From: an uncultured Lachnospiraceae bacterium
GTDB taxonomy: Bacteria; Bacillota; Clostridia; Lachnospirales; Lachnospiraceae
Reading direction: 5' to 3'
Assembly (NCBI GenBank): GCA_947652925.1
Contig: CANTEW010000013.1
Location: 1 to 55,033 of the forward strand
Length of the DNA: 55,033 nucleotides
Both the position numbers and the translations under genes were made by a program. Shown in pieces: positions 2,305 through 55,033 of this stretch. Positions within the stretch are counted from its first letter, which is position 1, and every line of letters begins with the position of its first letter. The notes below the pieces were generated by a model. That model saw only the letters and a program-made list of their open reading frames with translations. It was not told the origin of the DNA and did no database searches.

Positions 2305-3168
2305 GTGGCATCCAGGATTCAGGGGATTACGGTGGAGATTGGCGGGGATACTACGAAGCTCTCCACGGCGCTTTCAAAGGTGAATAAGGAGATTCGGGAC
2401 ACGCAGGCACAGCTAAAGGACGTGAACAAGTTGTTGAAGCTGGACCCGGGCAATGCGGAGCTGATGGCGCAGAAGCAGCGGCTCCTTTCCCAGGCGGTCA
2501 GTGAGACGAAAGAGAAACTGGATGCCTTGAAGCTGGCGGGGCAGCAGGCGAATGAGGCGTTGGCAAAGGGGGAGATTTCCCAGAGCCAGTATGACGCTTT
2601 GCAGAGGGAGATCATAGAGACGGAACATGCCCTGCGGGATCTGGAGCGGCAGGCGGAGCAGTCTTCGGTGGCTTTGCAGAAAATCGGGGCTGCCGGGGAG
2701 AAATTGCAGAGTGTGGGTTCTTCCATTGAGGGTGCCGGGCAGAAGCTGATGCCGGTGACGGCGGCTGTGGGCGGGCTTGCCACGGCGGCGGTAAAGGTGG
2801 CTTCTGACTTTGATTCCGCCATGAGCCAGGTGGCGGCGGTGTCCGGGGCGACAGGGAAGGAGCTGGATGCCCTGCGGGACAAGGCGCGGGAGATGGGGAG
2901 CAAAACGAAGTTCTCCGCTTCCGAGGCGGCAGAAGCTATGAATTATATGGCCATGGCTGGCTGGAAGACCGGGGACATGCTGGACGGCATTGAGGGGATC
3001 ATGAATCTTGCGGCCGCTTCCGGGGAGGATCTGGCGACTACTTCCGACATTGTGACGGACGCTTTGACCGCCCTGGGGCTGTCGGCTTCGGATTCCGGGC
3101 ATTTTGCGGATATCCTTGCGGCGGCAAGCAGTAATGCGAATACGAATGTATGCGTAATAAAAATATGA
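2305..3168 (+). CDS. Tape measure protein of the outer prophage, N-terminal part, interrupted by integration
   Basis: The GTG at 2305, preceded by a purine-rich GGCGGGTGAGG, gives MASRIQGITVEIGGDT, the usual opening of siphovirus tape measure proteins. A coiled coil (KEIRDTQAQLKDVNKLLKLD) follows, then the conserved TMP core with AMNYMAMAGW and SDIVTDALTALGL. Genuine sequence ends at Asn after NANT, at 3146. The next seven codons (VCVIKI and stop) come from the inner prophage. The gene continues at 53397. The family sets tail length and occupies the tube lumen. A product truncated here could not build a normal tail, so the outer prophage is disarmed while the insertion is present. Confidence 0.88.
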   Translation: MASRIQGITVEIGGDTTKLSTALSKVNKEIRDTQAQLKDVNKLLKLDPGNAELMAQKQRLLSQAVSETKEKLDALKLAGQQANEALAKGEISQSQYDALQREIIETEHALRDLERQAEQSSVALQKIGAAGEKLQSVGSSIEGAGQKLMPVTAAVGGLATAAVKVASDFDSAMSQVAAVSGATGKELDALRDKAREMGSKTKFSASEAAEAMNYMAMAGWKTGDMLDGIEGIMNLAAASGEDLATTSDIVTDALTALGLSASDSGHFADILAAASSNANTNVCVIKI

Positions 3169-3172
3169 AGAT
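3120..3172. other. attL of the inner prophage
   Basis: The left half (to 3146) is tape measure coding sequence and the right half (from 3147) is phage. The proposed crossover dinucleotide is AA at 3145-3146. The phage-side arm TGAAGATT at 3166-3173 mirrors AATCTTCA at 53368-53375 at an equal distance of 19 bases from the AA. The serine recombinase gene begins at the next bases, as is typical of these integrases. Confidence 0.8.
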
Positions 3173-4746
3173 TATAGTCTAAGAAAAAGTGTCTCTCCAT
3201 CCCAGACACAATTATCTACCACTTCATTCACGACAGCATTCTTATCCTTATCCGAAAAACGCTCAAGCCCATGGATAAACTGGGCTATCGTATCGGCCTT
3301 ATCTTCGATGGATCTCTTTTCTTTATCCTCCCTACGTTTTGCTGCCCTTGCAAGCTCCTCCTCACGCTTCAGGGCCTGCAGTTCTAAGTCCTGACGCTCT
3401 ATCTCAGCCACGATATACTTCATTGCTGAAGAACTGTCCGCTTCCGAGAGGGAAGCCGTCAAACGGGCGATACGGGCCTCACAGGCGGCGATCTTCTGGC
3501 GGGACGGTTGCGAATCAGGGGCTTTTTCTTTTGGCTCTGCTTTCTCTATGTAACGCTGGATCACAGAAGGATCGGCCTCGATCTCCCTGAACGTCTCCAG
3601 GACCTTATCATCCAGGATGGAACATGTGATCGCTCTCATATCGCACGCTTCCACGCCCTGACGCTGGCGTTTCAAACAATAATACTGCGATAGGACGCCG
3701 GACTTTTTCTTTTTCCTGGCGACACTCATCCTCCCGCCGCATTTGCACCGCAACACGCCTTTTAAGAGAGGGACATCATATCTCATTGTCTTGTCGAATG
3801 TATTCTGTTTGAAGCGCTCCTGCACGGCCAGCCACCTGTCTGCAGGTATGAAACCTTTATGGAGGCCCAGGCACACGATCCAATCTGACTTGTCTTTCAA
3901 AGGATGTGTCCCGCCCTCACCTTTTCCACGCCGCCCGTAGACCATGACACCTTGTATTCCGTCCCACCTCTCCCTGGGTGAACCTGCGTCCATCTGGCAT
4001 CCGAGAGATTCCCAGTAGTCGTAGACTTCTGCAGTGGCGATACAATAGTAAGGCGTGGTCAGGATACGGTAGATGGACGCCTGGGAGAAGAAGCATCCAT
4101 TCAATGTCTTGATGCCGTTCTTGCGGAAATGCGTCTCCATCCCCTGTACGGTCATCTCCTCATCCAGGAACGTATCATAGATGGACTTTATGTAGGCCGC
4201 CCCATCGGGATCGATGGCGAGTGTGCTGTGCCGTTTACCATCGACGATGATATGCTGGCGGACAAAACCGGTCGGCACGGTGCCGATCGGCCAGAAGCCA
4301 CGCCTGGCCAGACCGGTCATGTTGTCGGTCACTCTGGTGGCGATGGTCTCCCGCTCCATCTGGGCGAATACCATGGTGACATACATCATGGCCTTGCCGA
4401 TGGGTGTAGCCGTGTCGATGTTCTCCTTGATGGATATGAACATCACATGCTTTTCCTCCAGCGTGGCGTAGATGTTCGCAAAATCCCGCACGTCGCGGGA
4501 TAGCCTGTCCAGCTGGTAGACCACGATGGCGCCGATGAGGCCGTCCCTTATATCTTGTAAGAGGGCTTTTAACATTGGCCTGTTTGTGTTCGCGCCGGTC
4601 AGGCCCTCGTCGGTGTATTCGGATATCCCCTCGTCCTGCCCGGGGAACTTGAACTGGATATACTCCCGGCACATCCGGCACTGGTTCGTGATGGAGTCGG
4701 ATCTGTCGGAATAGACGGACTTCCGTCCGTAGATCGCAAAATGCAT
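3172..4746 (-). CDS. Large serine recombinase (phage integrase)
   Basis: 524 residues. The N-terminal resolvase domain (about 3-150) begins AIYGRKS, with Ser10 as the expected nucleophile that forms the 5'-phosphoserine link. Then come a recombinase domain (about 165-270), a zinc ribbon starting near residue 334 (CKCGG, later CLK and CDM), and a Glu/Lys-rich coiled coil (about 415-475) ending in VVDNCVWDGETLFLRL. AAGGAGG lies just before the ATG. The gene abuts attL, with its stop codon at 3172. Such enzymes join attP to attB without host factors and need a directionality factor to excise. No directionality factor is identified here; small uncharacterised genes of the early region or the attR locus are candidates. 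Confidence 0.96.
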   Translation of the reverse strand: MHFAIYGRKSVYSDRSDSITNQCRMCREYIQFKFPGQDEGISEYTDEGLTGANTNRPMLKALLQDIRDGLIGAIVVYQLDRLSRDVRDFANIYATLEEKHVMFISIKENIDTATPIGKAMMYVTMVFAQMERETIATRVTDNMTGLARRGFWPIGTVPTGFVRQHIIVDGKRHSTLAIDPDGAAYIKSIYDTFLDEEMTVQGMETHFRKNGIKTLNGCFFSQASIYRILTTPYYCIATAEVYDYWESLGCQMDAGSPRERWDGIQGVMVYGRRGKGEGGTHPLKDKSDWIVCLGLHKGFIPADRWLAVQERFKQNTFDKTMRYDVPLLKGVLRCKCGGRMSVARKKKKSGVLSQYYCLKRQRQGVEACDMRAITCSILDDKVLETFREIEADPSVIQRYIEKAEPKEKAPDSQPSRQKIAACEARIARLTASLSEADSSSAMKYIVAEIERQDLELQALKREEELARAAKRREDKEKRSIEDKADTIAQFIHGLERFSDKDKNAVVNEVVDNCVWDGETLFLRL

Positions 4747-4801
4747 ACATCATCCTCCTTAAAAAAGTGTATAAAAATAACACCTGATCAAACGTTCTGG
4801 C

Positions 4802-4906
4802 TTGACCGGTGCCCCCGCAGGATGATATATTGCGTTTGGTGAGGTATCACTCTGCGGAGTATATCTGAAAGCCGTTCGGTGTTGGTAGCACCGGGCGGTT
4901 TTTCTT
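4802..4906 (+). ncRNA. Candidate small RNA convergent with the KilA-N gene
   Basis: TTGACC at 4802-4807, an 18-base spacer and TATATT at 4826-4831 precede about 70 bases with no ORF, ending in a hairpin (GCCGTTCGGTG at 4871-4881 with CACCGGGCGG) and a T-rich run to 4906. It lies on the opposite strand, just past the KilA-N stop codon. It may simply be the terminator for the KilA-N transcript read on the other strand. The spacer length makes the promoter uncertain. Confidence 0.35.
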
Positions 4907-4912
4907 AATCAG

Positions 4913-5725
4913 CTATTGATTATCTTTAACTTCAACGTATCCCATTACTTCACGGTAGTTCGGGAGTGACAGGAACTGTTCAAGATAGGGTAGCGCGCTG
5001 GGATCTCTTTCAGCGAAATATTTTCGTGACTTATCGCGTAGCCATTCTTCAACAAAGAATCGGCGCAATTCTCCAATCAATTCGTTCGGGTATGCTCGAG
5101 CATCAACGATACGCCCATCTTCGTATTTATGGGGGTATGTAGGGTAATCATCTACGGGATAACCTAAATTACGTAAATGTCTTGAAAACGTGCGTCCAAG
5201 GGATATATCGGGGATCATCCCAGATGAAACTGTATAGCCTAATGCTTCAAGCGGTCCGATAAGGGATAACGTTACCTCGTTGAGCATAGAAAAATAACCA
5301 TAAGGGACGCTTGCCATGTTTACAAGATATCGTTTTAAATGATAGGGTAAGTTTTGTTGTTGGATATTGCCAGACATCCATTCAAAAACCCATTGGGATA
5401 CAAGTACGGCAATTTTTGGGGAGAGCCACTGTGCGAGGTGGATGGCAACCTGCGGATGTACCCAGGTTCCCTGAAGGTGGGGAGTCCCGCCCCGTATTGT
5501 CTGAATGAGTCCCGTTACGGGAATTCCCGTAACGGAGGATAATTCATTTAAAAAGGCCTGTGTTGAAGAAAGTCTAGCATAATCATTGATCTGTTTCTTG
5601 ACCACTTTGCACATTGCTGTAGCGTTGATATAGCCGTCAGTTATACGTTGTGATATGATATCATTATCCGCCAGACGTTCAATAACTTTGGTCTGAAGTT
5701 GGAATTGAAGTTGTGTATTATCCAT
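4913..5725 (-). CDS. KilA-N domain protein
   Basis: 270 residues from ATG at 5725, with GGAGA 8 bases before it. The KilA-N DNA-binding domain spans about residues 20-115: GYINATAMCKV, then STQAFLNEL, TGIPVTGLIQ and GTWVHPQVAIHLAQWLSP. The C-terminal half (IGPLEALGYTVSSG, RHLRNLGYPVDDYPTYPHKY, YPNELIGELRRFFVEEWL) is a separate domain often found with KilA-N, perhaps DNA-sensing. The protein probably acts on DNA in the cytoplasm. KilA-N prophage proteins can be regulators, antirepressors or abortive-infection factors such as BstA; the sequence does not decide between them. A 24-bp palindrome lies inside the gene and a near-identical copy lies outside it at 6122. Confidence 0.85.
   Translation of the reverse strand: MDNTQLQFQLQTKVIERLADNDIISQRITDGYINATAMCKVVKKQINDYARLSSTQAFLNELSSVTGIPVTGLIQTIRGGTPHLQGTWVHPQVAIHLAQWLSPKIAVLVSQWVFEWMSGNIQQQNLPYHLKRYLVNMASVPYGYFSMLNEVTLSLIGPLEALGYTVSSGMIPDISLGRTFSRHLRNLGYPVDDYPTYPHKYEDGRIVDARAYPNELIGELRRFFVEEWLRDKSRKYFAERDPSALPYLEQFLSLPNYREVMGYVEVKDNQ
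5512..5535. repeat. 24-bp perfect palindrome inside the KilA-N gene
   Basis: Half-site CCGTTACGGGAA followed by its exact complement, centred between 5523 and 5524. On the coding strand it encodes the VTGIPVT stretch of the KilA-N domain. A second copy with a single base difference occurs at 6122-6145, in non-coding DNA. Confidence 0.85.
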
Positions 5726-5809
5726 AAATATCTTCTCCTATTTTTGAGTAAGGGATTTCAGATTAAAAAAAATTTTCTCTCGAGGGGATGTTGCCGGGCG
5801 GTTTTGTTA

Positions 5810-5838
5810 TTGACAGATCTGTCTGCCTGGCATATAAT
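5810..5838 (+). promoter_or_regulatory. Consensus promoter of the antitoxin RNA, with a palindromic operator
   Basis: TTGACA at 5810-5815, exactly 17 bases, TATAAT at 5833-5838: both boxes match consensus. The perfect palindrome GACAGATCTGTC at 5812-5823 overlaps the -35 box and spacer, so a dimeric regulator could shut it off. Confidence 0.75.
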
Positions 5839-5844
5839 ATGCTT

Positions 5845-5950
5845 AACAGAACAGCCGACGAGTAGTTGCACACTACCCGCCCCTGTGAAAATAATTGACT
5901 ATAGAGATAGCCGCCTATTCTTTACCAGAGGACAGGGCGGCTATTTCTTA
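5845..5950 (+). ncRNA. Antisense antitoxin RNA of a type I toxin-antitoxin locus
   Basis: Runs from the consensus promoter at 5810-5838 to a hairpin at 5907-5944, about 100 bases with no credible ORF. It is transcribed towards the small toxin gene at 5941-6024 and overlaps its 3' end and terminator, the layout of fst- and txpA/ratA-like loci. Its leader (ATATGCTTA, ACAGCCGAC, TACCCG) recurs in the toxin mRNA leader as an inverted copy. The RNA itself has not been observed; it is inferred from promoter and terminator. Confidence 0.6.
5907..5949. terminator. Bidirectional terminator shared by toxin and antitoxin transcripts
   Basis: ATAGCCGCC at 5907-5915 pairs perfectly with GGCGGCTAT at 5936-5944, followed by TTCTT on the plus strand. 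The stop codon of the toxin lies within the right arm. Confidence 0.65.
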
Positions 5951-6024
5951 TCGACGTATCTGAGTATCGCTACGATCAGGTTGGCTGTCGCCAGTATGAC
6001 CATCAACAACTCATATGTACTCAT
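5941..6024 (-). CDS. Small membrane toxin, type I toxin-antitoxin (putative holin-like toxin family)
   Basis: 27 residues: MSTYELL, then a single hydrophobic segment (about residues 5-22), ending LRYVDKK. The MSxYExL start, one membrane helix and a charged D-K-K tail are the signature of the Hol_Tox/TxpA-like toxins of Bacillota. ATG at 6024 is chosen over the in-frame ATG at 6030 because AAAGGGG is 8 bases from it. The convergent RNA at 5845-5950 is the likely antitoxin. Such peptides insert in the cytoplasmic membrane and are kept silent by antisense RNA, stabilising the prophage. Confidence 0.75.
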   Translation of the reverse strand: MSTYELLMVILATANLIVAILRYVDKK

Positions 6025-6094
6025 AAGCATTTCCCCTTTCCGTAAGACTCGGAACGGGTAATGAGCCGCCACTGTCGGCTGTCCGGGTAAGCAT

Positions 6095-6124
6095 ATCATA
6101 TTGTCAGGGTGCGGATTCTGTCCG
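6095..6124 (-). promoter_or_regulatory. Toxin mRNA promoter overlapping a palindrome
   Basis: Read on the minus strand: CGGACA (6124-6119), 18 bases, TATGAT (6100-6095). The -35 box overlaps the last three bases of the 24-bp palindrome at 6122-6145, so a protein bound there would block transcription. The -35 box is weak, hence moderate confidence. Confidence 0.45.
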
Positions 6125-6145
6125 TTACGGGAATCCCCGTAACGG
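6122..6145. repeat. Second copy of the KilA-N gene palindrome
   Basis: Same 24 bases as 5512-5535 except one T to C change at the fourteenth position (6135). It lies in the short gap between the hicB stop codon and the toxin promoter. It may be an operator, a structured 3' end for the hicAB mRNA, or a recognition site for the KilA-N protein. Confidence 0.8.
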
Positions 6146-6149
6146 CTTA

Positions 6150-6548
6150 TCAACCGACGTGGAGTTGTGCCTTCAATGCATCCTGCAATACTTGGGAGAA
6201 ATTCAGCCCAGCAGCGATAGCGGCATCGTTGAGCCATGATGGGATACTCAGTGTCTTTTTCACCGCTCGGGAGTCGGTTTTCTTTTTATATGCCAGCATA
6301 TCGAACTCGATCACTGCAAGAAACGCATCTGATCCAGGGACGATCGTTGTCGGGTCAGATGCATCTGGTAACAGTTGCCCTTCTTCTTCACGGCATACCA
6401 GAGCCAGACCCAATGCATCTACAGCCATCTCATAGGCTTGCGCCATATCGTCACCTTGTGTGAGACACTCCGGGAGGTCTGGAAAAGAGATCCAAAAACC
6501 ACCCTCTTCAGCTTTGTGGAACAATGCAGGATAAAATAACTTTTTCAT
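6150..6548 (-). CDS. hicB: HicB-family antitoxin
   Basis: 132 residues. The N-terminal HicB fold (about 1-70) reads FYPALFHKAEEGGFWISFPDLPECLTQGDD and is followed by AYEMAVDALG. The C-terminus (KKTLSIPSWLNDAAIAAGLNFSQVLQDALK) looks like an added DNA-binding domain. It is downstream of hicA in the same leftward transcript, the usual order for this arrangement. The protein neutralises HicA by direct binding and is expected to repress its own promoter through the inverted repeat at 6809-6851. Confidence 0.93.
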   Translation of the reverse strand: MKKLFYPALFHKAEEGGFWISFPDLPECLTQGDDMAQAYEMAVDALGLALVCREEEGQLLPDASDPTTIVPGSDAFLAVIEFDMLAYKKKTDSRAVKKTLSIPSWLNDAAIAAGLNFSQVLQDALKAQLHVG

Positions 6549-6579
6549 GATACATAGACCTCCATCTGTGATGGCGGGG

Positions 6580-6768
6580 TCATTTAAGCCCCGCCTGTTT
6601 CAATATAGCCTGTTCCAGACCTTTTTTCAGGTCCGTGCTGTGATAAGGAACTTCGGTCTGATGTCCGGTCTCGTCATTCCTCATCTTTACATGGGAACCG
6701 TTCTGCCCGACTATCTTAAAACCGTTTTTCTTGAGATGTCTTATCATCTCACGTGATGTCATCGGCAT
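6580..6768 (-). CDS. hicA: HicA-family mRNA interferase toxin
   Basis: 62 residues with the full HicA fold: TSREMIRHLKKNGF, then QNGSHVKM, in which His26 is the expected catalytic residue, then VPYHSTDLKKGLEQAILKQAGL. AAAGGAG lies about 12 bases before the ATG. The toxin cleaves mRNA in the cytoplasm when HicB is lost. With HicB and the neighbouring type I locus it gives this prophage two stabilisation modules side by side. Confidence 0.94.
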   Translation of the reverse strand: MPMTSREMIRHLKKNGFKIVGQNGSHVKMRNDETGHQTEVPYHSTDLKKGLEQAILKQAGLK

Positions 6769-6800
6769 CTTTTTGTATCTCCTTTCCTTATCATGCCTAT

Positions 6801-6829
6801 ATCATATCACGTAATAATACGTATGTCAA
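6801..6829 (-). promoter_or_regulatory. hicAB promoter
   Basis: On the minus strand TTGACA (6829-6824), 17 bases, TATGAT (6806-6801), leading into hicA. It is flanked and overlapped by the 16-bp inverted repeat at 6809-6851. Confidence 0.8.
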
Positions 6830-6851
6830 GGTGAAATACGTATTATTACGT
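6809..6851. promoter_or_regulatory. Operator: 16-bp perfect inverted repeat at the hicAB promoter
   Basis: ACGTAATAATACGTAT at 6809-6824 and its exact reverse complement at 6836-6851, separated by 11 bases that contain the -35 box. One arm lies in the promoter spacer and the other just upstream of -35, fitting autorepression by HicB or HicAB. Confidence 0.8.
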
Positions 6852-7014
6852 AAAATATCGAGTGTCGTCTCAAACCTTGCCGATAGTAGCTATATCCTCA
6901 TCCACTTCTACGTTTGGTTATTTTTTGATCGGGAATCCACAATAAAATACTATCAATCACATAGTATCACGAATTAATTTCAGATACATTGCTTCCTCAC
7001 ATACGTAGCCGTTG

Positions 7015-7224
7015 CTATGATAGACCATTGATCCGCAGGCAGTTATTGTAGGCGAGTTCTTGCAGTTGTTTATAAAGTGGTTGGACATTATATGTCTTAG
7101 GAAATTCTAATTTCTTCGTTGCATAGACCACTTCATATGCAGTCAGGTTGGGTGTTTTGATGTATGTAAAGGCCAGCGCACTATCATTAAGACCAAATCC
7201 AGCGGTTTTCATGGCTACATCCAC
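7015..7224 (-). CDS. Short hypothetical protein, possibly a remnant
   Basis: 69 residues from ATG at 7224 (a second in-frame ATG is four codons on). No clear ribosome binding site; an in-frame stop lies two codons upstream. The sequence (FGLNDSALAFTYIK, AYEVVYATKKLEFPKTYN, CLRINGLS) has no recognised motif, signal or membrane segment. It follows the gene at 7253 by 28 bases on the same strand and shares its AT-rich composition, so it may be co-transcribed, or it may be the remains of a longer gene. Confidence 0.35.
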   Translation of the reverse strand: MDVAMKTAGFGLNDSALAFTYIKTPNLTAYEVVYATKKLEFPKTYNVQPLYKQLQELAYNNCLRINGLS

Positions 7225-7252
7225 TACAGAAAAATTGATAGTTTGAGAATTT

Positions 7253-8380
7253 TTATTTTATAAAAAAATCTACAGCCGTATCATAAGCTTTTAATTTTTT
7301 AGAAATAGTATAAGAACCCAAGGGCAAATCTGATCCAGAATAATAAGAAAGTGATCTTACAAATTCTTTGTTATCTTTATATTTCATAGCAAATGAATAA
7401 AACAGGTCTTTCATTTCAGGCTCGGCATCTTCCAGCGTATAGTATACTTTTCTTTTGAGATTACAATATACTTTCATGGCAAAATAAGCAATTTTTTCAT
7501 CCAGGTCGATATTACGAAAATACAGGTTATGAGCTTCATCTTCACTGGCATAAGCAGGAACATAAATTCCTTTTCCGATTAAATACCGAATCAATTTTTC
7601 TGGCATAGGGGATGGATACAACGTCCTTCTTTCTTCATATCTCGTAAGAAAAATAGAGACATCCTCAAATGCGGCGTCTTGTGGTAAAGATAATCTTAAT
7701 TTTTTTGCATAGGCTATCTGTTTTTCCGTAGGTGCGCCGAGAGAGATTTCTGTTATCTCGAATGGGGGAAGGAAACCGCTTTTCTGTTGTATGGCTTCCA
7801 TTGACGCAGTTGATTCTACTACTACTTGGATAGTTTTGAAACGGTTTGTAGCTGGATTTTTACCTTTAACAAAATACCTTTTACAAGTTATACAATTTTT
7901 ACGCACTTTAGAATTATTGACTTTACATTGCACATCGATAACATTTTCAGGAATGTTGTTTTTTAGAGGTGTTATTTCATCAATATTCTTATTATTGTTG
8001 TAAATTTCAGCATCAGATTCAGTACGAGAAACTGGGTTAAGGGCGTTTTGGTCAGCAAACAGTTCTGGTCGATATTCTCCCGTCCTTAATGTTTCAGATA
8101 TATTTGTGTGTTTTTCGCCAAAGTGATCTAAAGTACTGGATAGTTTCATCATCTTTTCATCTAGTCCTAGAGTATTAGATACTTTGACGCACGTTTCTCC
8201 CAGACCACTTAAAGCATCAGATGCCTTTGATATTTTCTCATCTAAATCTATAGCATTGGATATCTCCGTATATTTTTTCTCTACTGCATTAGATGATCTC
8301 ATTAGTTTTTCATCTAAATTTAGGTCATCCGATATTTTTTTACACTTTTCACCTAAATTTGAAAAGCCAGGTAATTTCAT
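7253..8380 (-). CDS. Uncharacterised AT-rich cargo protein with N-terminal repeats
   Basis: 375 residues. The first 100 hold degenerate repeats of about 27 residues built around LDEK and LGExCxKxS (NLDEKLMRSS, DLDEKISKAS, GLDEKMMKLS), probably a helical bundle or coiled coil. A short CITCKRYFVKGKNP segment near residue 150 has a CxxC. From about 210 there is PTEKQIAYAKKLRLSLP, a helical motif seen in diverse phage and plasmid proteins. No catalytic motif is recognised. AGGAGG precedes the ATG. It sits in the lysogeny block between hicAB and the ImmA gene, a common site for genes expressed from the prophage, so a role in lysogen fitness or exclusion is plausible but unproven. Confidence 0.6.
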   Translation of the reverse strand: MKLPGFSNLGEKCKKISDDLNLDEKLMRSSNAVEKKYTEISNAIDLDEKISKASDALSGLGETCVKVSNTLGLDEKMMKLSSTLDHFGEKHTNISETLRTGEYRPELFADQNALNPVSRTESDAEIYNNNKNIDEITPLKNNIPENVIDVQCKVNNSKVRKNCITCKRYFVKGKNPATNRFKTIQVVVESTASMEAIQQKSGFLPPFEITEISLGAPTEKQIAYAKKLRLSLPQDAAFEDVSIFLTRYEERRTLYPSPMPEKLIRYLIGKGIYVPAYASEDEAHNLYFRNIDLDEKIAYFAMKVYCNLKRKVYYTLEDAEPEMKDLFYSFAMKYKDNKEFVRSLSYYSGSDLPLGSYTISKKLKAYDTAVDFFIK

Positions 8381-8502
8381 AATATAGGTTCCTCCTTTTA
8401 TGTATATCCTACATAGATAATGCGATAAAAAAGTAAAGAGATAACGCTAAATGGTAAAATAATTTCTTGATATTTCCTTTTGATACGAAAAACTGTGATC
8501 AA

Positions 8503-8940
8503 TTACTTTTTCAATCTTAATCCAACAAGTTTTTGATGATATCCCAAAGTACGGGATAGTTGCTCCAGCGTATAATCCCTGTATTTTTCTATATCTTCAT
8601 CAGATACAAGTAGATGCATGGCAAATGTATTTGCCTCCATTTCATACCTGGAGGTATTCAGGCACGTCCGGGTATCCATGAAGATGGCATTGCTTTTCTT
8701 ATGCAAGAGCATGTGTCCGAGTTCGTGGGCCAGCACGAAACTTTTTTCGGTATCCGGGAGCATCTCATCTATGTATATGATGTTATTCCGTCTGAAGTAT
8801 TGATAAAAGCCACGTACCCCCACTAAAGGGTAGTGTACAAGGATCACATTCATACCCATTACCATTTCAAACGGGTTCCGGGTTTTGTGTTGACGAACAA
8901 GACGGTCCACCCTCAACTTAATATCTTTCATAGGCATCAA
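8503..8940 (-). CDS. immA: ImmA/IrrE-family metallopeptidase
   Basis: 145 residues. FVLAHELGHMLLH carries the HExxH zinc motif at residues 72-76, with Glu102 in YEMEAN as the likely third ligand. Members of the family cut their partner repressor after DNA damage, as ImmA does to ImmR of ICEBs1. The start codon overlaps the repressor stop (ATGA), so the two are translationally coupled. It most likely cleaves the repressor at 8937-9398 to trigger induction. Confidence 0.9.
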   Translation of the reverse strand: MMPMKDIKLRVDRLVRQHKTRNPFEMVMGMNVILVHYPLVGVRGFYQYFRRNNIIYIDEMLPDTEKSFVLAHELGHMLLHKKSNAIFMDTRTCLNTSRYEMEANTFAMHLLVSDEDIEKYRDYTLEQLSRTLGYHQKLVGLRLKK

Positions 8941-9398
8941 TCCTTTTTGTATTTTTTAGGCGTGTACTTTTCCTTATTCTTTTTCTTTGCCATCTCCATG
9001 CCAATCTGCATCGCGGCGAGGATGGATTCTACTGCCTCGGGGCTGGCCGGATTACCATCGAACATCAAGCCTTCTTGGGAGGTGAGTTGTTCGCGGGTCT
9101 GGTCTAGGATTTTTTCTATATCACGTTCATCTTTACGGGTCAAAGCGTTGATGTCAAGATAGTTTTGACCAGCTGTTTCAGGAAGGATTGTAATTTTGTC
9201 GGTTCGTCCTAAGAGGTAATCGGTATCCACATTGAAAAAATCAGCAATTTTTTCAAGCGTTTCAAAATCTGGTTCTCTAGCTCCAGTTTCATACATTCCG
9301 ATTGTGCTTCTTGAGATGCCTAATCTTCCGGCCATTTCTACTTGTGTTAATCCCGCAGAAATTCTAAGGCGTTTAAAGATGTTTTGGAAATTTCCCAT
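8937..9398 (-). CDS. XRE-family phage repressor (ImmR/CI-like)
   Basis: 153 residues. The N-terminal helix-turn-helix (about 8-60) reads RLRISAGLTQVEMAGRLGIS and then YETGAREPDFETLEKIADFF. The C-terminal half is acidic and has no peptidase motif, in keeping with cleavage in trans by the ImmA-like protease encoded next. AAGGGGAGG lies before the ATG. Its own promoter contains an operator dyad in the spacer and the divergent rightward promoter has a related half-dyad, so it should repress lytic entry and itself. Confidence 0.92.
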   Translation of the reverse strand: MGNFQNIFKRLRISAGLTQVEMAGRLGISRSTIGMYETGAREPDFETLEKIADFFNVDTDYLLGRTDKITILPETAGQNYLDINALTRKDERDIEKILDQTREQLTSQEGLMFDGNPASPEAVESILAAMQIGMEMAKKKNKEKYTPKKYKKD

Positions 9399-9428
9399 GA
9401 GATACCTCCCCTTGTGTTGTTAAATCTA

Positions 9429-9457
9429 ATATTATCACATAACGTGATAAATGTAAA
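9429..9457 (-). promoter_or_regulatory. Repressor maintenance promoter with operator in the spacer
   Basis: On the minus strand TTTACA (9457-9452), 17 bases, TAATAT (9434-9429). The operator TTATCAC-ATAAC-GTGATAA at 9432-9450 (7-bp arms, 5-bp centre) fills the spacer. Confidence 0.7.
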
Positions 9458-9480
9458 TATAAAAATGTCACGAAAAGTGG

Positions 9481-9509: not shown

Positions 9510-9557
9510 ATGTAGGAGAAACACGAACGGATATTCGATATAGGGGAGGCAGGAACA

Positions 9558-10154: not shown

Positions 10155-10164
10155 CAAAAAAAGG

Positions 10165-47457: not shown

Positions 47458-47460
47458 GTC

Positions 47461-48640: not shown

Positions 48641-48690
48641 TCACTATAAATGATATGAAGATCGGAACAGACAAAACGAAAGGAGAGACT

Positions 48691-49170
48691 ATGGAAAGAT
48701 ATCTAAGACCGATCCAACTGCTGCTATCAGCGGTGATCGCCTGGCTGAGCAACAGATTGGGGATATTATTCCCAGTGCTGTGTGTGTTGTGCTTCCTCAT
48801 GATAGTGGACTACATCACAGGGATGACGGCCAGCAAGAGGGAAGCCCTCGATCATCCAGACGACCCTGGGTATGGTTGGAATTCACGAAAAGGGGCAAAG
48901 GGGATACTCAAAAAAATGGCGTATGTGTGTGTGATCGCATGCGCCATGGTGTTGGACTATATGATCGCGCTGCTGGCTGGACAGCTTGGGCTGGACATGC
49001 CAAAGCGTGTGTTCTTCGGTCTTCTGGTGGCAGTGTGGTACATACTCAACGAGATGTTATCCATCGCTGAGAACGCTGGCCGTGCAGGGGCAGATGTGCC
49101 GGAATGGCTGCTGCGGTATATCGCGGTATTAAAAAAGAAGATAGATGATAAAAGTGACGGAGTCGAATAG
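48691..49170 (+). CDS. Holin (phage lysis / toxin-secretion holin family)
   Basis: 159 residues from ATG at 48691, with AAGGAG at 48680-48685. Membrane segments are at about 6-45, 70-90 and 100-125 (LGILFPVLCVLCFLMIVDYI, VCVIACAMVLDYMIALLAG). The DYITGMTASKR turn and GYGWNSRKGAKGILKK are typical of the Phage_holin_4 family. It permeabilises the membrane at the end of the lytic cycle and lets the endolysin out. Confidence 0.9.
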   Translation: MERYLRPIQLLLSAVIAWLSNRLGILFPVLCVLCFLMIVDYITGMTASKREALDHPDDPGYGWNSRKGAKGILKKMAYVCVIACAMVLDYMIALLAGQLGLDMPKRVFFGLLVAVWYILNEMLSIAENAGRAGADVPEWLLRYIAVLKKKIDDKSDGVE

Positions 49171-49191
49171 GTTTTTTGAATGGAGGTAATG

Positions 49192-50517
49192 ATGAGCAAT
49201 AGTTCTCTAGTGAGTTATACATCGATCAGTCCGTGCAAGAGCGTTCCCAGGGAACACAAGATCGACACCATCACGATCCACTGCGTTGTCGGGCAGCTTT
49301 CTGTAGAAGGTATCTGTGGTTGTTTCCGTAACTCAGCGGTGGGCGCGAGCTGCAATTACGCTATCGGGACGGATGGCCGGATCGGCCTATGCGTAGAAGA
49401 AAAAGATTGTTCCTGGTGTTCTTCTAGTCCATCTAATGACCACAGGGCGGTCACGATCGAGTGCGCCAGCGACAGGACGCATCCTTATGCGATCAATGAG
49501 GAGGTCTATAGATCATTGGTCGATCTCTGTGCGGATATTTGCAGGAGGAACGGCATAAAGGGAGTGAAGTGGAAAGCTGACAGGTCCCTGATCGGCCAGC
49601 CGGACAAACAGAACATGACCGTCCACCGTTGGTTCGCGAACAAGGCCTGCCCAGGGGACTATATATATGATCGCTTAGGGAGGATCGCAATAGAGGTGAA
49701 TGCTAAGCTGGGTGCTGGGGCCATCAAAGATAATACCGAGGGACTGACCAAGATCATGGGCACCGCTGTAGCAACTGCAGAGCAGATGAAAAAATACATC
49801 AGGGCAAAAAATCCCGGTGTGTCTCAGTCGGTGCTTGATATGGTGCCATTATATCTGTCAGAAGGCAAGGCGGAGGGCGTTCGGGGAGACATTGCTTTTG
49901 CCCAGTCGTGCCTTGAGACGGGAAATTTCACATTTAAGGGTTCTGCAGTCACCTTGGACCAGAACAATTTCTGTGGCATGGGTGTCACTGCGAACGGGAT
50001 GAAAGGCAATTCTTTCAAAGACCCAAAGACTGGCATCCGGGCACAGATCCAGCACCTGAAGGCGTACGCTAACGCGGACGCGCTGATGCAGTCCTGCGTG
50101 GATCCGCGCTTCCAGTACATCACGCGCGGATGCGCCAAATATGTGGAATGGCTGGGGATCCAGGAAAACCCGAACCGCAAAGGCTGGGCTGCCGGAGCGG
50201 GGTATGGTGAAAAAATCCTGAACATCCTGGCGCAGATTTTAAAAATAGAGAGGGGGGACGCATACATGTTTACAGTAAATGAGGTTAAAAAAGGCGAAAA
50301 AGGCAATCATGTGCTGCTGGTGCAGGAAATTTTAAAGGCGCGTGGGTTTAAAGGCAAAAACGGCCAGGAAATAAATTTGGACAAGGACTGCGGGGCGAAC
50401 ACTGTGTACGCCATTAAGCAGTACCAGAAGGCGCGGAACAAAGTAGACCCAGGCATCTGCGGAAATGTGGATGGTATCGCAGGGCCGAAGACTCTGCGGG
50501 ATATGATCGCGTTGTAG
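49192..50517 (+). CDS. Modular endolysin: amidase, glucosaminidase, peptidoglycan-binding
   Basis: 441 residues. N-acetylmuramoyl-L-alanine amidase (amidase_2, about 12-160) with TITIHCVVGQ, in which His is a zinc ligand, and later TVHRWFANKACPGDYIYD. A glucosaminidase-type domain (about 185-345) carries FAQSCLETGNFTF with the expected catalytic Glu and NNFCGMGVT. A PG_binding_1 domain (about 355-440) closes with GNVDGIAGPKTLRDMI. GGAGG precedes the ATG at 49192. Two cutting domains and one binding domain cleave the host wall. Confidence 0.93.
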   Translation: MSNSSLVSYTSISPCKSVPREHKIDTITIHCVVGQLSVEGICGCFRNSAVGASCNYAIGTDGRIGLCVEEKDCSWCSSSPSNDHRAVTIECASDRTHPYAINEEVYRSLVDLCADICRRNGIKGVKWKADRSLIGQPDKQNMTVHRWFANKACPGDYIYDRLGRIAIEVNAKLGAGAIKDNTEGLTKIMGTAVATAEQMKKYIRAKNPGVSQSVLDMVPLYLSEGKAEGVRGDIAFAQSCLETGNFTFKGSAVTLDQNNFCGMGVTANGMKGNSFKDPKTGIRAQIQHLKAYANADALMQSCVDPRFQYITRGCAKYVEWLGIQENPNRKGWAAGAGYGEKILNILAQILKIERGDAYMFTVNEVKKGEKGNHVLLVQEILKARGFKGKNGQEINLDKDCGANTVYAIKQYQKARNKVDPGICGNVDGIAGPKTLRDMIAL

Positions 50518-50525
50518 AAATCACG

Positions 50526-50568
50526 GCTCGAAAAGAAATTATTGTTTTACTAAAGTTTCTTTTCGAGC
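50526..50568. terminator. Hairpin between the lysis genes and the right-end operon
   Basis: GCTCGAAAAGAAA (50526-50538) and its exact reverse complement (50556-50568), a 13-bp perfect stem. It lies 9 bases after the endolysin stop and 27 bases beyond the convergent operon's last stop. No strong T-run, but position suggests a shared terminator. Confidence 0.65.
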
Positions 50569-50594
50569 TATCTGCTTAAAAGAGATAAAATATT

Positions 50595-51170
50595 CTATAA
50601 ATCTTGTTTTAGTGAAACTGGTTCAATTCCGTAGTTCAAAAGATTGATATATTCTAATAAAAAATATCTATCTGCTAATTCCAAAACATTAAAATTCATA
50701 TCATCTTCGGTTTCCTCATAATATAGTAGTCTGCATATTATTTCTTGATATGGTGTATCACAGGTTAATGCTATAGGCAAATAATATTTGCCTATTCTTT
50801 CGCGTATACCGTTTTCTTTTAGAGAAATATTAATACAATCTTTCATATAGGATAATGCGGCATTAACAGCTATAGATTGTGGAATTATTGATATTTCATC
50901 TATGCTATGCGATGAATGACTTATCGTATTTGATTCTAAAAAACAAATTGTAATTAAAGCTGCCTGTTTATGCGAATCAAGAGCACTTGTATCAGGTCTC
51001 ATAAATCTATTTATGATATCATCGTATCGTTTCTCAAATATCTCTTTAAATCTATCATACCCGTTTGTATCAAATTTTATGTTGGGATATTTCTTTTTAC
51101 ATATATTATATCCTTCTATTATCGATTCCCATGCTTTATCTACAACACCTTTGGTTTTCGTCATAATCAT
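50595..51170 (-). CDS. Uncharacterised soluble protein of the right-end operon (gene 3)
   Basis: 191 residues from ATG at 51170, which overlaps the previous stop (ATGA). Helical, with FMRPDTSALDSHKQAALITI in the middle, a segment suggestive of a helical active or binding site (D..H...), and ADRYFLLEYINLLNYGIEPV near the end. No membrane segment. I do not recognise the family. It is AT-rich and lies after the lysis genes on the opposite strand, so it is probably expressed in the lysogen. An effector or sensor in phage exclusion is possible given the membrane proteins encoded with it. Confidence 0.7.
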   Translation of the reverse strand: MIMTKTKGVVDKAWESIIEGYNICKKKYPNIKFDTNGYDRFKEIFEKRYDDIINRFMRPDTSALDSHKQAALITICFLESNTISHSSHSIDEISIIPQSIAVNAALSYMKDCINISLKENGIRERIGKYYLPIALTCDTPYQEIICRLLYYEETEDDMNFNVLELADRYFLLEYINLLNYGIEPVSLKQDL

Positions 51171-51472
51171 AATCCTCTTTTCGGAAGTAAGTACGTATCG
51201 CACTCTAAATGATCTTTGAATTTGATATTTCTTTTGTATGTTTTAGGATTGAAACCAGAGTTTTTTCTTTTTCCCCACTGTTTTGGTTTTATGAGACTTG
51301 TTTTAGCTACATACTCTTCAAAAACAAAACCTCCGTGTTCTTTTCTGTACTTTCGTCCCTTAATGGAGGCATGTTGTTGTTTTAAATCATATCCTGAAAA
51401 AAAGTGAATAATCCCTAATACAGATCCAAACACTAAAATTGTTACTGCAATATATATTGAAATATCTATCAT
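51167..51472 (-). CDS. Small membrane-anchored basic protein of the right-end operon (gene 2)
   Basis: 101 residues. One N-terminal membrane helix (about 3-25: ISIYIAVTILVFGSVLGIIH) then a soluble, strongly basic tail rich in Lys, His, Arg and aromatic residues (KGRKYRKEHGGFVFEEY, KPKQWGKRKNSGFNPKTYKR). The tail would be cytoplasmic. No family recognised. It is 6 bases after the 4-helix gene and overlaps the next start by 4 bases, so the three are one translationally coupled unit. Confidence 0.65.
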   Translation of the reverse strand: MIDISIYIAVTILVFGSVLGIIHFFSGYDLKQQHASIKGRKYRKEHGGFVFEEYVAKTSLIKPKQWGKRKNSGFNPKTYKRNIKFKDHLECDTYLLPKRGL

Positions 51473-51478
51473 GATAAA

Positions 51479-52024
51479 TTACTCTCTTTCTACTGGATCT
51501 ATACTTGCATCATATGCATAAATTATATTATTTGTCAAATCATTAACAAACACCCAAAAAATAGATGCGGATGTTAAAAATTTTATTGCTAAAATCATAA
51601 ACAAATTTCTTTCACAACGTAAAGTGTATGCGATCTCAACCGCTTTTGAATTAGAAATAATTATGAAAATAAGCAGTGTGAGAGTATATGCAAAAGCACA
51701 TCCCATTACGCATAGTCTTGTATGATAATAATTATTGGTTGAGCAAGTATTTTCTATAGATGAACATTTTATCTTGTATGTGATTTCCGAAGCGGATATA
51801 GCGTTATTCAATACTGCACGAGCTAGACAAAATATATTCAGTATTAGGATTTCTGTAGCTGCGTTTTGCATTACAACCGATATTATAGATATGATTGAAT
51901 ATGTTGCTGCTATTATACTATCGGCCCATATTTTGAATTTGAACTTTGCTTTTTTCTTTTTTAAAACAAATCCGTTATATTCTAAATAATTTTTAGGGAT
52001 TTCAGACAAAGAATGCATATTCAT
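51479..52024 (-). CDS. Four-helix membrane protein of the right-end operon (gene 1)
   Basis: 181 residues with ATG at 52024 after AAGGAAAA. A short polar N-terminus with a Lys-rich patch (VLKKKKAKFKFKIW) is followed by four hydrophobic segments at about 33-50, 54-72, 105-125 and 142-162 (IISIISVVMQ, ILILNIFCLARAVL, AYTLTLLIFIIIS, FLTSASIFWVFVND). The pattern of two helical hairpins and basic N-terminus resembles 4TM effectors of nucleotide-signalling systems (SLATT/S-4TM), but no sequence identity is claimed. First gene of the operon. Confidence 0.7.
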   Translation of the reverse strand: MNMHSLSEIPKNYLEYNGFVLKKKKAKFKFKIWADSIIAATYSIISIISVVMQNAATEILILNIFCLARAVLNNAISASEITYKIKCSSIENTCSTNNYYHTRLCVMGCAFAYTLTLLIFIIISNSKAVEIAYTLRCERNLFMILAIKFLTSASIFWVFVNDLTNNIIYAYDASIDPVERE

Positions 52025-52188
52025 TTTTTCCTTGGTGGTTTATGTATATTTAACGAGAAAAATTAATTTTATTTTGGCGCGATGCATACATAATTAAGGA
52101 TTGCGATTTTTCATTATTAACTCTCCTGTTTTAAAATGACGTAATCTTGAATATTTGATGACATATCAATACTATGTGAATTATATAC

Positions 52189-52229
52189 AAATTATGCAAT
52201 AAAATCCTGTGCATAATAGTGCATAATTT
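52189..52229. promoter_or_regulatory. Candidate operator upstream of the right-end operon
   Basis: A 10-bp perfect inverted repeat AAATTATGCA / TGCATAATTT plus a third TGCATAAT at 52210-52217 in direct orientation to the right arm. It lies about 170 bases before the first gene of the operon. A promoter could not be fixed with confidence. Confidence 0.45.
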
Positions 52230-52468
52230 ATAAAAATATAAACAACGAGTGTATTGTATCATCTCACATACAGATAAGTGGTGACAAAATTATTAATATT
52301 AATTACAAATATATTAACAATTCATCACATACTAATCACTAATTGTTTCAAAATCAACAATCTATTACATTGCACTAACAAATAAATGAATTCAATATAG
52401 AAAATCGCTGTAAAAAAATACGGTTAAATAAAACATAATGCTTGTACGCACGAACAATAACTAAAACA

Positions 52469-52498
52469 GCTTGTCCTAAAATTGTTTTTAGTACAAGC
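52469..52498. repeat. Structured hairpin in the AT-rich region
   Basis: GCTTGT / ACAAGC (52469-52474 with 52493-52498) and CTAAAA / TTTTAG (52476-52481 with 52486-52491) form a 13-position stem with one mismatch and a 4-base loop. A second GCTTGTAC at 52440-52447 can compete for the right arm. It may be a terminator or an RNA switch; no transcript is known. Confidence 0.4.
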
Positions 52499-52756
52499 AA
52501 AGCAGAGGTATGCCTTGTTAATCTATAGGGGGAGTTTTTTACTGATTCTAATAAATTACCATTTGTTAAAATATTTAATATATATATAATATGTTACTTA
52601 ATAATTTTCCTTGTGTTTTTTGGGAGGATATACTATTCGCTTTTTTATTATACTAAATTAAAAACGTAGAAATGATGTGAGCCCGTATGAGGGCATGGTC
52701 TGCAAATTTTATCGCACAAAAAAGAGTCATGAGAAACCACGGCTCTTTTCTATATC

Positions 52757-52785
52757 TTGATTATTCTATTTATGTCTGTTATAAT
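52757..52785 (+). promoter_or_regulatory. Promoter of a small RNA near attR
   Basis: TTGATT at 52757-52762, 17 bases, TATAAT at 52780-52785. It points right, against the 55-residue gene. Confidence 0.7.
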
Positions 52786-52790
52786 ATCCA

Positions 52791-52866
52791 TTGTCGGGGG
52801 AGCGGTGGCAAGCCCGCCCTCCCTTGATTTTGTCTATGGCCGATTTAATCGGCCTCTTCTTTTTTG
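52791..52866 (+). ncRNA. Candidate small RNA convergent with the 55-residue gene
   Basis: About 75 bases from a good promoter to a terminator. It has a GC-rich hairpin (GGGAGCGG with CCGCCCTCCC, 52796-52823) and ends in GGCCGATTTAATCGGCC (52838-52854) plus a T-rich tail to 52866. Its 3' end is antisense to the last codons of the gene at 52845-53012. The layout is that of a type I antitoxin or an antisense regulator. Transcript inferred, not shown. Confidence 0.55.
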
Positions 52867-53012
52867 TCGTCTTTTTCTTCTTTAAATCCTGTTGAATGTT
52901 TGCGTATTTCCTTGTTCATCTCTCTTACTTCATCCATCGTTTGACATTTATCTGTTGCCGTCGTTATCAGCCATGCTATGAATTGCATTTGTTTATCAGT
53001 CATGATATCCAT
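52845..53012 (-). CDS. Small 55-residue protein at the attR end
   Basis: ATG at 53012 after GAGGAAAG. MDIMTDKQMQFIAWLITTAT opens with a hydrophobic amphipathic stretch; the rest is charged (MDEVREMNKEIRKHS) and ends in a Lys/Glu/Asp-rich tail. It is driven by a strong promoter whose spacer is a 20-bp palindrome. The stop codon lies in the terminator hairpin of the convergent small RNA. It could be a toxin-like peptide, a regulator or a directionality factor; no family recognised. Confidence 0.6.
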   Translation of the reverse strand: MDIMTDKQMQFIAWLITTATDKCQTMDEVREMNKEIRKHSTGFKEEKDDKKEEAD

Positions 53013-53062
53013 TCTTTCCTCTCTTTCTATTTCAGATTTACTTACCCCATCTGATAATACTT

Positions 53063-53091
53063 ATTATATAACGATATCGTTATATCGTCAA
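53063..53091 (-). promoter_or_regulatory. Promoter and 20-bp palindromic operator of the 55-residue gene
   Basis: On the minus strand TTGACG (53091-53086), 17 bases, TATAAT (53068-53063). The perfect palindrome ATATAACGATATCGTTATAT at 53066-53085 fills the spacer and touches the -10 box. The Arc-like gene just upstream is the natural candidate to bind it. Confidence 0.8.
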
Positions 53092-53270
53092 GAGTCTCTG
53101 CTGATTTTTTTCAATTTTTCTAGGACACATCTAACGATATATCCGTTTAGGCTCTCTCCTGTTGCTTGTATCTGTTCTTTTGTGCCTTTTGGGAACCTTA
53201 CCAGTATCTTGTCGTAGGCCTCCTTTTCATATTTTGCCGTGGCACGTTTCTGGGCGTTTGATACCGGCAC
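53088..53270 (-). CDS. Ribbon-helix-helix (Arc-like) regulator
   Basis: 60 residues from GTG at 53270, with AGGAGG 9 bases before. After a basic N-terminus (MPVSNAQKRATAKYEKEAYD) comes the RHH unit: strand KILVRFPKG, helix TKEQIQATGE, turn SLNGYIVRCVLEKLKK. Such dimers bind palindromic operators through the paired strands. It is encoded directly upstream of the palindrome at 53066-53085, so it most probably represses the 55-residue gene. It stands within 130 bases of attR, so it may also couple with integration control. Confidence 0.87.
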   Translation of the reverse strand: MPVSNAQKRATAKYEKEAYDKILVRFPKGTKEQIQATGESLNGYIVRCVLEKLKKISRDS

Positions 53271-53318
53271 TTGAACACCTCCTATCCCCGCTGTTAAAAA
53301 ATGTTATCATATTTTGTA

Positions 53319-53348
53319 TATTGACGTGTATTGAGCGAAATGTCAATA
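53319..53348. repeat. Inverted repeat upstream of the RHH gene
   Basis: TATTGAC (53319-53325) and GTCAATA (53342-53348), 16 bases apart. On the minus strand TTGACA (53346-53341) may be the -35 box of the RHH promoter, so this is a probable operator, or an accessory site of the recombinase given that attR is close. Confidence 0.5.
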
Positions 53349-53368
53349 GTGTTATGATATTTTTATAA

Positions 53369-53410
53369 ATCTTCACTTTTTTATCCCGCTGACTAACGTA
53401 TCTATGATGG
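53369..53410. other. attR of the inner prophage
   Basis: Left of 53396 is phage, right is tape measure coding sequence. The proposed crossover AA is at 53395-53396. The phage arm AATCTTCA at 53368-53375 mirrors the arm in attL. The attB half CGTAT at 53397-53401 mirrors ATACG at 3140-3144. Confidence 0.8.
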
Positions 53411-55033
53411 GGGAGACATTCAAGTATTGTGCGCCGGTTGCGGGGGCTTTGGGGTTCACGGCGGAGGATACGGCGGAAGCCATCGGGCTGATGGCGAATG
53501 CGGGGATCAAGTCTTCCCAGGCCGGCACGGCCATGAGGACCATGCTGACCAGCCTGACGGGGGAAGTGACTTTCGTTGGGGATGCGTTCGGGGAGCTGAC
53601 GGTGCAGACTACCAATGCGGACGGGAGTATGCGGAGCCTGGGGGATATCCTGACGGACTGCCGGGCGGCGTTCGCGCAGATGTCGGAGTCGGAGCGGGCG
53701 GCCAATGCGGAGGCGTTGGTGGGGAAGAACGCCATGAGCGGGTTCCTGGCGGTGATGAACGCGGCTCCTGGGGATATTGAGAAGCTGAACAATGCTATTA
53801 ATAACTGTGACGGCACGGCGGAGCGGATGGCCGAGACCATGCAGGACAATCTGGCGGGGCAGCTTACGATTTTGAAGAGCCAGTTGGAGGAACTGGCGAT
53901 CTCTATCGGGGAGATTCTGATGCCGTCCATCCGGCAGATCGTGGGGTGGATTCAGGGGCTTGTGGACTGGCTGAACGGGCTGGACGAGGGGACGAAGAAG
54001 GTCATTGTCACGGTGGCTCTGGTGGCTGCGGCCCTGGGGCCGGTGCTGATTGTGATTAGTAAAGTGGTAGGTGCCGTGGGGACGATCCTGACGGTGGTTC
54101 CGAAGATTGCGGGGGCGGTTTCCGGCGTGGTCGGGTTTGTGTCGGGGACGGTGATCCCGGCGCTGTCGGCGGTTGTGGCGGCTATCGGATGGGTTCCTAT
54201 TGCCATAGCAGCGGTGATTGGGGTTGTTGTGCTGCTTTATAATAAGTGTGAGTGGTTCCGGGATGCGGTGAATGCGGTCTGGGCGCAGGTGAGGGACTTT
54301 TTTGTCTCTGCCTGGGAGGTCATCTGTTCGTTTTTTACGGAGACGATACCGGCGGCGTGGGAGTCTCTGGTTTCATTTTTCCAGGGGATTCCGGCCTGGT
54401 GGTCGGGGCTGTGGCAGTCGGTGGGTGACTTTTTTAACAATGTCTGGACGGGCATGATGGAGAATCCGGTGCTGTCCGGGATTGTGGATATGATACGGTC
54501 TCTTTGGGAGAATCTTTCTGCTGCCCTGCAGGGCATCTGGCAGGGGATTCAGACGGCGGCTTCGGGTGCCTGGGAGTTGATTAAGAATGTGATTCTGGGG
54601 CCGGTGCTTCTGCTGATTGACTTGGTGACGGGGAATTTTACGAAGCTGAAAGAGGACGCGCTGCATATCTGGACGAACATTCAGCAGGCGGCTTCCACGA
54701 TCTGGTCCGGCATTCAGCAGATTGTGGGTTCTGCGGTGCAGGGGCTGGTGAACCATGTTTCTATCCTGCTGTCGGGGCTGCGGGATTTCATGGGGAACCT
54801 GTGGTCTGCGGTGTCCTCTGCGGCGGCTTCGGCCTGGAACGGGCTGAAAAATCTGGTGGTGTCCACGGTGTCGGATTTAAAGCAGTCGGCGGTGGAGGCT
54901 TTCCGGGCGATGGTGTCGGGGATTGGTTCTGCCCTGTCCTCTCTGGGGAGCGTGGTGCAGGACGGGTTCCAGTCTGCTATTGGGTTTATTACGTCTCTGC
55001 CGGGGCGGGCTTTGCAGTGGGGGATGGATTTTA
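53397..55033 (+). CDS. Tape measure protein of the outer prophage, C-terminal part (continues past the window)
   Basis: An uninterrupted frame from 53398 (GTA TCT ATG ATG) to the end. It begins VSMMGETFKYCAPVAGALGF, the normal continuation of NTN in the left part, and goes on with AGIKSSQAGTAMRTMLTSL and QLTILKSQLEELAISIGEIL, then several hydrophobic segments (VALVAAALGPVLIVISKVVG, IAIAAVIGVVVLLYN) and repeated Trp-rich helices (VWAQVRDFFVSAWEVI) seen in tape measure proteins. It has no start of its own, so it is silent unless the inner prophage excises. Confidence 0.9.

Follow-up and report, generated by a model that had tools for sequence, protein, structure and literature searches.

Elements residing in the late genes of prophages are already known, both as the helper-embedded phage-inducible chromosomal islands (HE-PICIs) and as the prophages-in-prophages of E. 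coli. HE-PICIs are satellites of enterobacteria with tyrosine integrases and AlpA, whose related integrases reach several prophage late genes with some off-target events; the main text of that study gives nine late-gene targets and does not contain the term 'tape measure' (Tommasini et al. 2023, PMC10111431). In Listeria, coordinated phage elements have been described in which prophage excision serves as a molecular switch, with comK named, and in which a metalloprotease acting on repressors links two phage elements (Argov et al. 2019, PMC6872733). Prophages with large serine recombinases (LSRs) target conserved coding sequences, some of them being multi-targeting, and no tape measure target is named in that article, supplements aside (Durrant et al. 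2022, PMC10083194). Here we analysed the entire 55,033-bp contig CANTEW010000013.1 (G000:C13; hereafter the window) from a draft assembly of a Lachnospiraceae bacterium (100 contigs, 98% complete). Its sequence is best explained, with a probability of roughly 0.8, by a temperate myovirus that was integrated by its own LSR into a coding motif of the tape measure protein (TMP) gene of a siphophage-type prophage, and comparison with related sequences makes it as good as shown that an LSR carried out this nested integration at an attB in the TMP gene.

Like an HE-PICI, the inner element is a mobile element that lies inside a late gene of the surrounding prophage and brings no replacement sequence, the outer element being partly seen here. 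Excision restores the target gene of HE-PICIs, a step that would have its counterpart here, whilst their integrase is co-oriented with the interrupted late gene and ours is not, the LSR lying on the minus strand and the TMP gene on the plus strand (PMC10111431). Unlike HE-PICIs, the inner element is a 50-kb phage that encodes its own virion proteins and carries a serine recombinase; its host belongs to the Lachnospiraceae and its site lies in a TMP gene. It shares with the E. coli cases a full phage within a prophage, its completeness being judged here by homology only, but the attB in E. coli was apparently derived from the host chromosome, whereas here it is a conserved structural coding sequence of the outer phage (Nakamura et al. 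2021, PMC8112680). The initial annotation of this DNA had described a phage-phage scheme distinct from integration in host genes, a scheme for which the two systems just named are precedents (PMC10111431, PMC8112680); enzyme class, the apparent autonomy of the inner phage and the site set the present case apart from them. Open-access titles and abstracts, a scope that leaves out preprints, most subscription papers and supplements, report no prophage in a TMP gene. What is apparently new is thus a self-sufficient phage with a serine recombinase that uses a TMP gene as attB, in one case.

The divided tape measure gene and its attachment sites

The left half of the outer TMP gene (2305..3146, plus strand) runs into attL and the right half (53397..55033, plus strand) is cut by the contig end; both were assigned by PHROG and Pfam profiles and by uninterrupted homologues. 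Translation places the two halves in the same reading frame, confirming that the gene continues in frame at 53397, and their profile matches adjoin: the left half covers positions 71-379 of PHROG 1272 and the right half 379-1047, the corresponding ranges being 4-335 and 335-570 for PHROG 4704 and 1-93 and 92-201 for Pfam PhageMin_Tail. The intact gene carrying the joined sequence, for which the initial annotation had proposed a search, was found unbroken across the join in two viral contigs, L173 (96.5% nucleotide identity over 2580 bp, within a TMP frame of 990 aa) and L172 (94.1% over 2581 bp), the latter having AACGTATCTATGATGGGGGAGAC at the site, which matches the attB prediction. The joined DNA also aligned without a break to contigs G370:C27 (92.9%) and G286:C39 (89.6%), and to G061:C55 (90.3%) up to the end of that contig. 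The halves are therefore neither drawn from unrelated genes nor short of an unbroken counterpart. Taken together with the attP arms found at both ends of the inner element, these results bear out the proposal of a prophage seated inside the TMP gene of another prophage.

Within the window, the left TMP fragment closes six residues past the split Asn codon (...NTN-VCVIKI-stop), and no replacement coding sequence is supplied at the interrupted gene. Neither half has a stop or an indel, and the ratio of non-synonymous to synonymous substitution rates (dN/dS) is 0.06-0.12 against G370 and G286. The attB lies in the conserved TMP coding motif NANTNV|SMMGETFKY; the shorter site motif NTNV[ST]M[ML]G, with up to two substitutions allowed, occurred in 14 of 34 scanned loci (30 TMP loci, our split one included, and four LSR loci). 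When the best 80 of 595 confirmed viral loci were compared, 79 reached the site and the left half followed in every one of them, the remaining locus being cut by a contig edge within the right half. The left half was also used as a query against 397 genomes of the family, with matches in 60; besides those reaching residue 274 or beyond, some matches covered just a short N-terminal stretch, up to residues 84-143, or were places at contig edges.

Similarity to G370 (mismatches at 1 of 60 bases left of the core and at 6 of 60 right of it) had prompted the idea that halves of two different outer phages were joined at the core, an idea that we rejected in view of the closeness of L173 on both sides. 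Right of the core only a short tract departs from L173: the 60 bases at 53398-53457 carry six mismatches to it and there resemble L172, whilst the nearest bins left of the core carry 0-2.

To place the crossover we relied on attP symmetry. An undivided site downstream of the LSR gene of L003, a relative from the same genus with the closest LSR (86% identical over 481 residues, up to a contig edge), consists of AATCTTCATATTTTTATTACGC, a centre and CAGCGGGATAAAAAAATGAATATT; its first arm is found at the left junction of the window and its second arm at the right junction with one or two bases changed. The attP reconstituted from the window is symmetric at 19 of 26 positions about TT (AA on the plus strand), the next best centre reaching 15 of 26, and symmetry in L003 likewise peaks on TT (17/26); both thus show the inverted arms about a central dinucleotide that are expected of an LSR. 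As a control, 13 sites judged undivided by eye scored 12-21 of 26, eight of them at least 17 with a clear single centre, against 9-14 of 26 for 11 sites judged integrated. The crossover is most likely to have occurred at AA, at 3145..3146 in attL and 53395..53396 in attR, which would make the inner element 50,248 bp long (3147-53394), in agreement with the boundaries first proposed. Because attP has a clear dyad and attB no overall one, this core rests on attP, although the inner five bases on each side of the attB core are symmetric (ATACG-AA-CGTAT). An exact and frame-keeping core at GTAT (3148-3151 = 53398-53401) was displaced to the nearby AA by the attP dyad; the two cores yield an identical protein and the attB dyad decides neither way. 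Other undivided sites have TC, AC or AG as their centre, or an unclear one, and the TT shared by L003 and the window suggests a changed core in this branch of LSRs. Patterns built on the attP arms gave no match for either arm in the viral contigs.

Relatives of the recombinase and their targets

The LSR gene (3172..4746, minus strand, 524 aa) combines Resolvase, Recombinase and Zn_ribbon_recom domains with a match to PHROG 95 (integrase), and lies directly beside the attachment site, 25 bases separating the core from its stop codon. Fifteen loci with related LSRs were judged integrated by eye, of which 13 are distinct once L107 (a repeat of L011) and L109 (a repeat of L014) are removed. No split TMP gene is among the targets assigned to them, so the recurrence that the initial annotation had suggested looking for was not found in this set. 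Nine of the 13 lie in an ATPase gene, one in a permease gene and one in another prophage, the other two (L015 and L108) being without an assigned target gene. The ATPase gene is of the secretion/pilus type (T2SSE, CpaF-type) and is cut at LRMRP in L009, L011, L013, L014 and L031, assigned by Pfam, and in L028 and L110, assigned by eye; L032 and L033 carry the next part of such a gene, MRP-RIIVGEVRGAETIDMLQ, again by eye. Since most integrated relatives are in this gene, use of the TMP appears to be a case of retargeting inside a single enzyme family.

The permease case is L010, integrated in a BPD_transp_2 gene, and no Pfam match was obtained for the target gene of L015. In L016 (11508-21463) the interrupted gene has a ParB domain and lies next to phage genes for the small terminase subunit and for DNA polymerase; judged from one flank, this is another instance within the LSR family of a prophage seated in a prophage. 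The second half of that outer gene was not among the four of seven methylase places examined in the L016 genome: C199, C413 and C226 hold other genes and C275 has no long frame. In a tree of 26 LSRs (midpoint root, with a very long outgroup branch), the enzymes of L010 and L016 are nearly identical, with end branches of 0.009 and 0.010, and the window LSR and that of L008, which is on the same contig as L003, lie outside all the rest (support 94/96).

The genome to which the window belongs retains one intact ATPase gene with a 450-aa frame. In two genomes of the same genus, G002 and G004 (L255, L256), the ATPase frame enters similar, unrelated residues (YGATAPI, SGATSPI) soon after LRMRPDRL. 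The genus is represented by five genomes, our own among them, and these two cases suggest that a further kind of element may also insert preferentially at the ATPase site.

Gene content of the two phages

Module homology and the attP dyad delimit the inner prophage (3147..53394) as an element of myovirus type. Beside the integrase lies a gene for a BstA-like KilA-N protein (4913..5725, minus strand; PHROG 6287, E 2.7e-53; PADLOC BstA, E 4.9e-17, a match limited to residues 123-240 of 270), a type of protein described in Gram-negative prophages, where a cognate anti-BstA element (aba) lies at the start of its gene (PMC8585504, in the part of that article consulted). Five viral contigs with BstA-like relatives (75-79% identity) had no related LSR within the stretches examined. 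Further along the left end are a match to a HicB-like antitoxin (6150..6548), an ImmA/IrrE-type peptidase (8503..8940, minus strand, Peptidase_M78) and, beside it, a repressor-like Cro/CI-type helix-turn-helix protein (8937..9398, minus strand, HTH_3), the last two being reminiscent of the Listeria metalloprotease (PMC6872733). The strands imply that late transcription of the outer phage would run antisense to the inner LSR, BstA-like and regulator genes, and a putative regulatory effect on these left-end genes is conceivable.

The remaining modules lie on the plus strand: replication, with exonuclease, single-stranded DNA-binding protein, DNA polymerase, primase-helicase and helicase (11959..20232); terminase large subunit, portal, head protease and major head protein (24161..30646); a tail sheath, the mark of a contractile tail (32915..34369, PHROG 23); the inner phage's own tape measure protein (35443..39057); and tail protein, baseplate wedge, tail fibre and endolysin (39240..50517). 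Head closure and methyltransferase genes were likewise recognised. The inner TMP belongs to the same superfamily as the outer one, yet an alignment by eye puts QTKSNQSAQQLMEAY in place of NANTNVSMMGETFKY, which means that the inner gene lacks the target motif. Judged by homology, we have here a contractile-tailed phage equipped to make its own virions, and the earlier description of the inner element as a complete myovirus-like prophage holds to that extent.

Both contig ends fall inside the outer element. At its left edge, positions 1..93 (plus strand) hold the 3' end of a gene situated ahead of the TMP module; its last 30 residues match PHROG 3033 weakly (E 0.0002), and window 1-142 shares 87% identity with the stretch upstream of the TMP gene in G370:C27. 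Two cargo open reading frames (ORFs) follow on the plus strand: ORF 1 (159-1316) has endonuclease-like PHROG matches to its C-terminal part, ORF 2 (1344-2189) has no PHROG match, and PADLOC returned no match for either. The G+C content of 151-2204 is 31%, as compared to 59-60% for the TMP halves, and L173 and G370 hold other ORFs in the slot upstream of the TMP gene; judged by these comparisons, the slot looks like a variable accessory-gene site.

A search of 20 genomes for the PF04860 portal gave matches in 15, and in 12 of the 20 the portal lies 4.6-7.6 kb upstream of 16 homologous TMP places, so that prophages with this TMP generally have both head and tail genes. In G286:C39 and G061:C55, which together with G370:C27 are the close homologues among the genomes, the distance to the upstream portal is 5.9 kb. 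No portal lies near the TMP gene in the remaining eight genomes: G370, G318 and G357 have it on other contigs only, and G296, G115, G128, G230 and our own genome gave no match at all. Between the window and G370:C27, 12 of 843 bases of the left TMP half differ; inspected by eye (L111, L112), the latter contig holds connector, tail, holin and lysin genes adjoined by host-like genes, with no head genes seen, and the PF04860 search found no portal on it. The tail cluster may specify a tail-only particle, or may itself be a remnant. The same cluster also adjoins two serine recombinases. An F-type tailocin was dropped as a general reading of the outer element, given the portals near the TMP gene in 12 of the 20 genomes, and stays a possible reading for the one in our window.

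Proposed mechanism and competing explanations

We propose that recombination between attP and the TMP attB, most likely at AA, split the gene into its attL and attR halves. A TMP is needed in tail assembly. Because of this role, the outer phage, provided that it is otherwise intact, would be disarmed whilst the inner phage is integrated, lacking a full-length TMP and forming no normal tails. Excision by an LSR gives the target gene back, and the LSR together with a directionality factor would, through that chemistry, excise the inner phage and rejoin the codons exactly, restoring the TMP. Gene integrity of one phage would thus most likely be held by another; in the Listeria case, the switched gene is reportedly one of the host. 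The proposal that the attB of a serine-recombinase phage was a structural gene belonging to another phage is supported by these data. As for disarming the competitor, the interruption of the TMP gene without replacement sequence stands, whilst an effect on the outer phage would follow only if the TMP matters to it as we infer; antagonism or coordinated induction of both phages is possible on the same footing, from one contig and with outer genes not found elsewhere in its own assembly. The preference may have evolved for the TMP gene, or it may stem from a one-off retargeting away from the ATPase gene used by most relatives. A fuller scenario, in which a myophage lineage evolved its integrase for the siphophage TMP motif, lysogeny disarms the competitor's tails, the BstA-like protein adds a second barrier and excision acts as the switch, we consider unlikely.

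Several observations weigh against our explanation. The split TMP is known from one instance: none of the 79 site-reaching loci among the best 80 of 595 viral loci is split, and among matches reaching residue 274 or beyond in the 60 of 397 genomes, our own frame of 318 aa is the shortest, the next being 397 aa. The placement of the core is weakened by five of the 13 undivided sites, which have no high or no single symmetry centre, and by attB, which has no overall dyad (7/16 at the core, a score that five further centres equal). Restoration of the TMP by excision is deduced rather than observed. The outer element, lastly, may be incomplete: within our own assembly we found no PF04860 portal, no major tail or tail-tip proteins of the outer type (a search that had no positive control) and, beyond the window, no DNA like the neighbouring outer genes, the other hits being C20:23541-24039 (79%, an acetyltransferase-like gene) and the inner endolysin. 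With both contig ends inside the outer element, this may reflect either an assembly gap or loss.

The rarity of the split bears on whether the LSR normally uses another site and landed in the TMP gene by chance, with no phage-phage strategy involved, to which we give a little short of an even chance. That a single TMP case was found, that nine of the 13 distinct relatives sit in the T2SSE/CpaF-type ATPase gene, that the nearly identical LSRs of L010 and L016 sit in a permease gene and in the ParB-domain gene of another prophage, and that attB has no overall dyad all fit such an accident, and HE-PICI integrases show off-target events too (PMC10111431). An enzyme straying from its usual site would, however, have passed over the intact 450-aa ATPase gene of its own genome, and the TT centre common to L003 and the window, where other sites have TC, AC, AG or an unclear centre, suggests a changed core instead. 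Somewhat below even odds, we would place an outer prophage that has decayed or been reduced to a tail-only remnant, in which case the insertion is a safe harbour and leaves no competitor affected. The missing portal, the headless cluster of the close homologue G370:C27 beside host-like genes, and the apparently defective state of all outer prophages in the E. coli study (PMC8112680) point in this direction; the stop-free TMP halves with their dN/dS of 0.06-0.12, the portals 5.9 kb upstream in G286:C39 and G061:C55, and the position of the contig ends, by which an absence could be an assembly gap, point away from it.

Two further explanations carry little weight. Dependence of the inner phage on the outer one, in the manner of a helper-embedded satellite, would be in keeping with the HE-PICI topology of a prophage late gene hit without replacement sequence (PMC10111431), but is highly improbable for an element with a serine rather than a tyrosine integrase and with its own terminase, portal, head, sheath, baseplate, fibre and lysis genes. 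An assembly chimera of two unrelated phages is barely credible: although this is a draft contig with both ends inside the outer element, and although mismatches to L173 number six in the 60 bases immediately to the right of the core against 0-2 in the nearest left bins, random misassembly is not expected to place both junctions at the arms of one attP and within one codon of one gene.

Integration of the myovirus into the TMP gene by its own LSR remains our preferred explanation, and it means that attachment in phage late genes is open not just to small satellites carrying tyrosine integrases but also to a self-sufficient phage that has a serine recombinase. In this locus an LSR directed at a phage gene comes with its natural attP/attB pair, and members of its family are seen to use the ATPase gene, a permease gene and genes belonging to further prophages as targets. 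Should excision restore the TMP, control over virion building by one phage would lie with another, and competition between resident phages would become testable by a few PCRs.

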